From positions 1 through 41,904 of IMG/VR virus record IMGVR_UViG_3300020121_000092: DNA of 41,904 nucleotides; one strand, written 5' to 3'. How positions within the stretch are numbered: position 1 is the first letter of the stretch; each line of letters opens with the position of its first letter. The notes beneath the pieces were generated by a model that worked only from the letters and a program-made list of their open reading frames with translations, did no database searches and was not told where the DNA came from. Shown here piece by piece: positions 33,793 through 35,541 of the stretch. Source of the stretch: a virus. Position numbers and translations under genes: made by a program.

Positions 33793-33825
33793 AGCGTTGG
33801 AAAATAAGGAAAAGCGTTGGAAAAT
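33793..33825 (+). repeat. Two direct repeats of AGCGTTGGAAAAT, 20-bp period
   Basis: Copies at 33793-33805 and 33813-33825. The core TTGGAAAAT also occurs at 34035-34043 and inverted at 33978-33986, on the other side of the tRNA-like element. Confidence 0.8.
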
Positions 33826-33836
33826 GATGAAAGCGC

Positions 33837-34006
33837 AAGTTATCCACATGTGGTAAGCGCTTGATTTGATGGGGGAAAATGGGGTGGCCGACGGGACTCG
33901 AACCCGCGACAACAGGAATCACAATCCCATCGGCAATACCGCCACAACACGCATCAAATCTCAATTCCTTACTTCCTATTTTCCAACAAGCTTAAAGTTA
34001 TCCACA
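33837..34006 (+). repeat. Direct repeat AAGTTATCCACA flanking tRNA-like element
   Basis: Copies at 33837-33848 and 33995-34006. Each includes TTATCCACA, the consensus DnaA-box sequence. They lie about 31 and 49 bp from the ends of the tRNA-like element. Confidence 0.75.
33880..33945 (-). tRNA. tRNA-His-like (GTG anticodon), no D arm
   Basis: Minus strand: acceptor GTGGCGG pairs with CGGCCAC (one mismatch), then an anticodon arm TGGGA-TTGTGAT-TCCTG with anticodon GTG, variable TTGTC, T arm GCGGG-TTCGAGT-CCCGT, discriminator C and encoded CCA. From the anticodon to the 3' end it strongly resembles bacterial tRNA-His. Between U8-A9 and the anticodon stem only about seven bases remain instead of a D arm. 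Likely explanations: the attP copy of the 3' half of a host tRNA-His gene, or a decayed tRNA. Confidence 0.6.
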
Positions 34007-34061
34007 ACGAATCAAGCGAGTTCCAAGGCATCCATTGGAAAATTTCATGCTGTATTTTCTT

Positions 34062-34196
34062 TCATAATCCGATCTTTTTAAGTGCGGCCTCGACCGCGTT
34101 TCGAATGAACTCGCTGACTGGGATTCCCAGCTTCTTCGAGGCCAGTTTTAGACGCTCAAGCATCTGTTCTGGGAAGTAAAAATTAGTTCTCTTCAT
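34062..34196 (-). CDS. Ribbon-helix-helix (CopG/Arc-type) repressor, 44 aa
   Basis: ATG 34196 to TGA 34062-34064. The product has the Arc/CopG plan: a beta strand (KRTNFYFPEQ), helix A (MLERLKLASKKLG), a turn and helix B (PVSEFIRNAVEAALKKIGL). RHH proteins act as dimers with the strand in the DNA major groove. No ribosome-binding site precedes it. Its start codon lies in a perfect inverted repeat that also covers the predicted -10, which suggests autoregulation. It lies between the integrase gene and the candidate attP, so it may control integration or excision. Confidence 0.78.
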   Translation of the reverse strand: MKRTNFYFPEQMLERLKLASKKLGIPVSEFIRNAVEAALKKIGL

Positions 34197-34235: not shown

Positions 34236-35348
34236 CTATTCTGTTGCCGTCGCCCGCTTCAATTTCCGCCTATCGTAATGCTTGTGAGTAGTTGCGGGGT
34301 TCGCGTGCGCGGCAAAGTCGTACATGTCAGCCGACCTATTCTTGATCTTTGTCGTGATCGCCGCCGGACGCACGTCAAGCAGGGAAAAGTATTGCGGATG
34401 TTCGACCAACTCCTTCGCGTCGCAGCCGATCCAAGCCAGCATTGCATCCTGCCAAACTGACCCCCACCCAGAACGCGTATAAGCCTGCCCATGCCGATTG
34501 GCGAACAGATACATCCTTTCTCTGCCGTGCGCCTGCTGTGCCCGCTTGACGACCATGCGCAGGCGTGGCGACCAGTCCCGAAGCTTGGTTACCTCTTCCT
34601 CGCCTTTTTTGCGCTTGGCGCTGATAACCATAACGCCCTCGCTGGTAAGTCCGGACACATGGAATGGCCGGACCTCTGCAGCGCGATACCCAGTCAGGTA
34701 GGTGAATAGGGCGGCACACCCCAGAGTTTTGAATTGCGCGCTTTCTTGTCGCTGCGTCCACAAATAGAAGCGCACGATTTGGCTGCGACTGATCGTGCGC
34801 ACATCCTTGTCCACCTTCCGCTTGCGCATCCCGACAAATGGATTTTGCTCGATCAATCCCCATTCGACGGCGTAATGGCAAATTGTGGACATTAGCGAAA
34901 GCTCTTTCCATCCCTTCGCAGGTGCCCCTGCCTTTGCTCTGGCATCTGCATATTGGTAGCCGTGGAGTGCCCTAAGTGCCATTGGATGCATGCCGCCGAA
35001 AAACTTTGTCAGATTTGCGTACGTACTTTTTCTGACCGCAAGCCCATCCTTCGATTGGTCCCTGTAATGAACCTGCGCAATGTCTCGCGCGAATCTGTCG
35101 ATCATGTCAGCGACCGATCCGGCGACAACTTTACCTTGCTGGATATCAAGTGCTTTTCGCTTGGCCGTCCGCTCGGCTTCGTTAATGGCTTGCCGGTCGC
35201 CGCGTGGTGCGGTCGCAAGCGTTTCGCTGGCGCCGTTTGGATAAAGATAGTAGTACGATACTTTCTTGACGCCGACATACTTTTGCAGTCGATCGACGCC
35301 GGGAACGTTTTCCTTACGCGAAGGCTTTGAGGTTGGGGGAGTCGGCAT
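34236..35348 (-). CDS. int: Tyrosine-type integrase
   Basis: 370 residues. The N-terminal ~70 residues are an arm-binding-like region, ~75-180 a SAM-like core-binding domain (MIDRFARDIAQVHYRDQSKD), then the catalytic domain. Expected catalytic residues are seen: Arg 222 in LTGYRAAEV, Lys ~248 in SAKRKKGEEE, Arg 327 in LLDVRPAAI, His 348 and Tyr 358 in HANPATTHKHYDRR. The His of the usual H-x-x-R box is Asp (325) here, a known kind of variation. It would recombine attP with attB. The gene overlaps the DUF4224 gene by 35 nt. Confidence 0.88.
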   Translation of the reverse strand: MPTPPTSKPSRKENVPGVDRLQKYVGVKKVSYYYLYPNGASETLATAPRGDRQAINEAERTAKRKALDIQQGKVVAGSVADMIDRFARDIAQVHYRDQSKDGLAVRKSTYANLTKFFGGMHPMALRALHGYQYADARAKAGAPAKGWKELSLMSTICHYAVEWGLIEQNPFVGMRKRKVDKDVRTISRSQIVRFYLWTQRQESAQFKTLGCAALFTYLTGYRAAEVRPFHVSGLTSEGVMVISAKRKKGEEEVTKLRDWSPRLRMVVKRAQQAHGRERMYLFANRHGQAYTRSGWGSVWQDAMLAWIGCDAKELVEHPQYFSLLDVRPAAITTKIKNRSADMYDFAAHANPATTHKHYDRRKLKRATATE

Positions 35349-35541
35349 ATTTTGCTGCTGTCTTTTCTTCTGAAACGCCTAGCCTCCTGTCGCGATATGC
35401 TCGCATCACGATTGGCAGGCCGTTACTGTCTATCTCGTGCTTCCAGTTGTTTTTTCGCAGCCATACCGCCATGCGGCACCGCTGATTGGATCGGCAGCCG
35501 ACGATCTCGGCCAACTCATCAGCGCTCAATCTGCCACTCAT
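35314..35541 (-). CDS. DUF4224 protein, possible excisionase-type partner
   Basis: 75 residues. The pattern LSADELAEIVGCRSNQRCRM, then AVWLRKNNWKHEIDSNGLPI, fits DUF4224, a short family usually encoded directly before phage integrases. Its winged-helix-like size suggests a recombination directionality factor, but this has not been shown for the family as far as I know. Overlaps int by 35 nt and the ASCH gene by ATGA, so it is in the same operon. Confidence 0.8.
   Translation of the reverse strand: MSGRLSADELAEIVGCRSNQRCRMAVWLRKNNWKHEIDSNGLPIVMRAYRDRRLGVSEEKTAAKYADSPNLKAFA

Follow-up and report, generated by a model that had tools for sequence, protein, structure and literature searches.

The integrase gene and its tRNA-His core

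The window, by which we mean the whole 41,904-base stretch of virus DNA analysed here, comes from a tailed phage with a contractile tail, and encodes tail sheath, baseplate, terminase, Sak4-like, SSB and Gam-like proteins. Next to its integrase gene (int) lies what is almost certainly the attP of a temperate phage with this contractile-tail gene set. Read along the minus strand, the order is int, P1 (−117), D1 (−80), P2 in inverted orientation (about −61), the core, a match to the IHF consensus, D2, P′1 and P′2.

35314-35541, minus strand: DUF4224 ORF of 75 amino acids (PF13986, E = 1.6e-7), overlapping the start of int; candidate excisionase (recombination directionality factor, RDF)
34236-35348, minus strand: int, tyrosine integrase of 370 amino acids (phrog_1 integrase, E = 9e-18)
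34062-34196, minus strand: ribbon-helix-helix ORF (RHH_3, E = 3.4e-9), between int and attP
34035-34043, minus strand: putative arm-type site P1, ATTTTCCAA on the minus strand, starting 117 nt before the core
33998-34006, plus strand: D1, exact DnaA box TTATCCACA, between P1 and P2 and exactly 80 nt before the core start
33978-33987, minus strand: putative arm-type site P2, inverted, GTTGGAAAAT on the minus strand, at about −61
33880-33926, minus strand: attP core, 47 nt of the tRNA-His 3′ half from anticodon to CCA, GATTGTGATTCC...GGCCACCCCA
33854-33866, minus strand: IHF-consensus match AATCAAGCGCTTA (WATCAANNNNTTR), between the core and P′1
33840-33848, plus strand: D2, second exact DnaA box, between the core and P′1
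33816-33825, minus strand: putative arm-type site P′1, ATTTTCCAAC
33796-33805, minus strand: putative arm-type site P′2, ATTTTCCAAC, 20 bp from P′1

The gene adjacent to the core has the catalytic residues R, K, R, H and Y of a tyrosine integrase (R222, K245, R327, H348 and Y358, conserved in all eight sequences aligned); its Pfam-type Phage_integrase match falls below the cut-off of that model. All 11 loci checked have a similar DUF4224-type ORF across the int start, and Burkholderia phage BgManors32 (NC_070955) has a feature annotated 'excisionase' in the same place. Pfam has so far assigned no function to DUF4224; the ORF is likely to encode the excisionase. The ribbon-helix-helix ORF was absent from this place in the relatives read, which have other ORFs there or none.

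An earlier note on this DNA had recognized a match to tRNA-His from anticodon to CCA, about 300 bp from the integrase gene. Both points were borne out by the 47-nt minus-strand copy and a measured distance of about 310 bp. The same note called the surrounding stretch gene-free, which holds in that it is largely non-coding but fails for the small ribbon-helix-helix ORF between core and int. The core is the only matching one in the whole 41,904-base record, and DNA extends beyond it on both sides, which fits a non-integrated or circularly permuted genome.

Putative arm-type sites and prophage junctions

Two repeats flank the core, TTGGAAAAT at 33797, 33817 and 34035 with an inverted copy at 33978, and AAGTTATCCACA at 33837 and 33995, so that the four and two copies previously reported are all in place. 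The copy at 33978 is indeed inverted, whereas that at 34035 is direct, a point on which the earlier wording could be read the other way. TTGGAAAAT occurs five times in the window against 0.32 expected, a count reached by none of 100 shuffles, and four of the five copies lie here, within 250 bp together with both copies of TTATCCACA.

P1 starts at −113 to −120 across the integrase family wherever it is clearly detected, and the distances of P1 and P2 from the core stay constant between lineages while their sequence changes (GTTGGAAAAT, GTTGTAAAGTT, TTTCGGAACG, CGTCGGAAA). By lineage, the arm sequence is ATTTTCCAACG in the window's clade, TTTCCAACG in the L025 group, CTTTCCGAC in L029, TTTAACAACG in L039 and ATTTCGGAA in L042, L044 and L130; in several loci with the opposite order of int and core, the automatic search found no such arm pair. 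Constant position combined with a sequence that tracks the integrase is as expected of integrase arm-type sites. From position and co-variation we thus infer that the TTGGAAAAT repeats are P1, P2, P′1 and P′2, which would place arm-type repeats to either side of the core, as in a lambda-type attP.

A further repeat flanks the core more closely, at 33863-33871 and 33952-33960 in the window (GATTTGATG/CATCAAATC). It recurs in L002 and L005 as AAACCCGCATG/CATGCGGGTTT and more weakly in other family members, as noted in the attP of L002, L004 and L005, and could represent excisionase sites.

Prophage junctions in relatives support the reading of the region as an attP, as do the arm sites, fixed in position and varying in sequence with the integrase. 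The sole relative of the window integrase in our scan of the genome collection, 60% identical, lies in a Chitinasiproducens palmae prophage with two copies of a 48-bp core on one contig, 44.6 kb apart. The copy at 191555-191602 completes an intact tRNA-His gene at its 3′ end, and the copy at 146919-146966 is a 3′ half only, beside int. In L019/L022, a member of the window's clade (L022, 74% identity), P1, D1, P2 and the core are followed by a host-type tRNA-His terminator resembling that after intact tRNA-His genes in Burkholderiaceae genomes. Duplication of the core at attL and attR with the tRNA restored was seen in these relatives only (at both ends in C. palmae, at one end in L022) and not in the window phage, and a search of about 800 Burkholderiales genomes turned up no integrase belonging to the window's clade. 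As in other attP sites of tRNA-targeting tyrosine integrases, the core is a tRNA 3′ end. The integrase would recombine the 47-nt core with the 3′ half of a host tRNA-His gene, which would stay complete at one prophage end, leaving a 3′-half copy at the int end. For the window phage, this restoration is inferred from the relative with the 60% identical integrase.

Had close relatives been integrated elsewhere with a different core, the earlier proposal of a tRNA-His crossover would have been in difficulty. All five close relatives and most of the more distant ones keep the tRNA-His core, which accompanies about 40 related integrases; most related integrases have it next to int. The clear exceptions, L064, L066 and L072, have integrases next to tRNA-Arg and are distant (54-55% identical or less). 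BgManors32 (OK665842 / NC_070955), whose integrase is 55.5% identical to that of the window over its full length, shares the tRNA-His 3′-half core and the DUF4224 ORF at the int start, but its arm sites are TTCGGAAC/GTTCCGAA-like and it has no DnaA box. In the P2-like phage Smp131, too, the attP lies downstream of the integrase and includes a tRNA end (tRNA-Thr); unlike in the window, repeats lie on one side only and no DnaA box is described there (PMC3931495).

The sequence ATTCAAGCACTTA, found directly after the host tRNA-His gene (L022:4498-4515, L160, L162), resembles AATCAAGCGCTTA after the phage core (window 33854-33870). Possible explanations are that the phage retained more of the host DNA, or that each of the two sequences matches an IHF-type site.

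Conserved DnaA boxes inside the attP

The sequence TTATCCACA is an exact DnaA box, present twice in the window against 0.15 expected (1 of 100 shuffles). Both perfect copies pointed out in the earlier note lie within the attP, at 33998 and 33840. In each of the six members of the integrase clade (the window, L002, L003, L004, L022 and L023), the 9-mer TGTGGATAA starts exactly 80 nt ahead of the core, and all nine columns of D1 are invariant, compared with 4 of 34 in the remainder of the spacer between P1 and P2. A second box precedes P′1 in four of the five clade members with a complete attP. In the window, L003 and L004 it has the same orientation and lies about 30 nt past the core, and in L023 it is reversed and directly at P′1; L022 continues into host DNA where the right arm would be. 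All ten exact boxes in the six whole records fall within the attP, and the other 40 cores examined have no DnaA box. On the integrase tree, L076 falls inside the clade (86/95 support) on a long branch and is without the box, so that the box label needs two changes.

The right arm also carries the IHF-consensus match, the only exact one in the window, where 1.3 would be expected by chance. It is exact at the corresponding place in L003 and has one mismatch in L004 and L023. In L002 (L002:4279-4330) the right arm is about 20 bp shorter and has neither the IHF-like site nor the second DnaA box; P′1 and P′2 are kept. Because L002 does without the second box, at most one box can be indispensable, and because related integrases at about 60% identity act on attP sites without boxes, DnaA is no general requirement.

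An exact box with the sequence TTATCCACA is present upstream of dnaA in each of five Burkholderiaceae genomes checked, which may not include the phage's host. It lies 1.3-1.9 kb upstream of the codons for the DnaA C-terminal domain, that is, near the start of dnaA, and is thus a sequence that the DnaA of such a host would be expected to read. Taken together, the boxes are very probably a selected, functional part of the attP, and DnaA is probably what binds them, judging by sequence identity.

We also looked for boxes near tRNA cores independently of the window integrase, by searching for a box 75-105 nt upstream of a T-loop with the reversed box as control. This returned 100 stretches, against 56 for the control, with an integrase nearby in 7 (three of them clade members) against 2, and a general link between DnaA boxes and tRNA-targeting attP sites was rejected on these counts. 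A second T-loop scan gave no integrase neighbours. The four cases outside the clade (L173, L190, L228 and L259) were all found by searching for the box, and single boxes in L190, L228 and L259 could be due to chance, given the size of the collection.

The L173 locus (L173:1390-1700) encodes a distantly related tyrosine integrase and has a different tRNA 3′ half, flanked by two identical copies of the 13-mer TGTGGATAACTCG, one on each side, with the arm pairs AGTTAGGGA on the left and CAATTCCGGGTT on the right; it is a possible second occurrence of DnaA boxes in both slots. L190 has TTATTCACA before P′1. The two identical 13-mers of L173 and this sequence of L190 are suggestive. No exact box was found in relatives about 50% identical to the L173 and L190 integrases, or in eight named phages of their wider integrase family. 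Among relatives of these integrases (37-39% identity), Pseudomonas phages F10, PA8 and PseuP_222 resemble the window in that int is preceded by a small ORF or a gene for excisionase (annotated under that name in F10; in AUS531phi the small ORF next to int is DUF4224) and followed by arm-like repeats, both direct and inverted. Their targets differ from that of the window, and this group has no exact DnaA box within 420 nt of the int end. As far as tested the trait is clade-specific, possibly gained more than once.

Possible roles of DnaA in recombination

DnaA bends DNA at its box, and the accessory factors known for lambda-type integrases are IHF, Xis and Fis. In the lambda intasome, accessory proteins that bend the DNA are placed between the arm and the core sites: IHF bound at H1 redirects the P arm, and IHF bound at H′ allows P′1 and P′2 to be engaged (PMC4880445). 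The window attP resembles that of lambda in its core, in predicted arm-type sites on both sides with putative accessory-protein sites between them, and in a tyrosine integrase with a small candidate excisionase gene next to int (PMC4880445). It differs in that the core is a tRNA 3′ half, in that P1 and P2 point in opposite directions, and in having DnaA boxes where lambda has IHF sites. By position, an analogy that extends no further, D1 and D2 would occupy the P1–P2 and core–P′1 slots that hold H1 and H′ in lambda.

Our preferred explanation, which we consider likely, is an attP with TTGGAAAAT arm sites and built-in DnaA boxes at which host DnaA would bind as an architectural or regulatory partner. 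In its simplest form, DnaA would help to fold the arms or compete for them, bending or blocking them according to its level or nucleotide state. Integration or excision would thereby be coupled to replication initiation, with DnaA stimulating integration, blocking excision or doing the reverse. Conservation of the boxes favours such DnaA-linked control of recombination, and the most likely role of DnaA would be that of a host accessory factor or regulator. A more far-reaching version, with DnaA as an integral accessory factor replacing a bending protein such as IHF and with lysogeny and induction gated by the state of replication initiation, is tentative, the more so as an IHF-like site is present on the right side too.

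The main rival takes the attP to be an ordinary one in which TTATCCACA is recognized by a phage protein, either excisionase or some other regulator, and matches a DnaA box by coincidence, with DnaA uninvolved. A conserved candidate excisionase of the DUF4224 type does lie beside every integrase checked, and the boxes are near P2 and P′1, where an accessory phage protein could act. However, ORFs of this type are also present beside integrases with box-free attP sites, the conserved 9-mer is identical to that upstream of dnaA in all five Burkholderiaceae genomes, and the phage records contain no copy of the box outside the attP. We therefore regard this explanation as unlikely, if the most serious competitor.

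The earlier suggestion that the attP is combined with a DnaA-dependent replication origin drew on two perfect boxes in a short, largely non-coding stretch, and fared much worse. There are only one or two boxes and no cluster, and no initiator was recognised among the proteins scanned. The GC-skew analysis proposed for this purpose showed that skew follows gene direction and shifts near 26 kb, not at the attP. The genes recognised as being of recombination or replication type, for a Sak4-like annealing protein, SSB and a Gam-like protein, are at 39-41 kb, and D1 is in exact register with the core and integrase sites across the clade, a constraint that an origin does not call for. Skew, the number of boxes and their register led us to reject an origin as highly improbable. 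A degenerate or alternative tRNA-His gene, carried and expressed by the phage, is scarcely credible: the Rfam tRNA match (RF00005, 33883-33945) scores 29.6 bits against a cut-off of 29, but ARAGORN finds no complete tRNA at the core, and conservation starts at the anticodon stem, the 5′ half not being conserved in relatives.

Overall, the locus is an ordinary tRNA-His attP with an unusual, conserved addition of DnaA boxes. In the literature searched, which covered few subscription journals, we found no description of DnaA boxes acting in a phage attP or held at fixed register inside one. An internal control is supplied by close relatives that share the tRNA target and the layout and have no boxes. 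If the preferred reading of host DnaA as a partner at these boxes is true, the conserved pair in accessory slots would tie the phage's decision to integrate or excise directly, at the molecular level, to the initiation of host replication.
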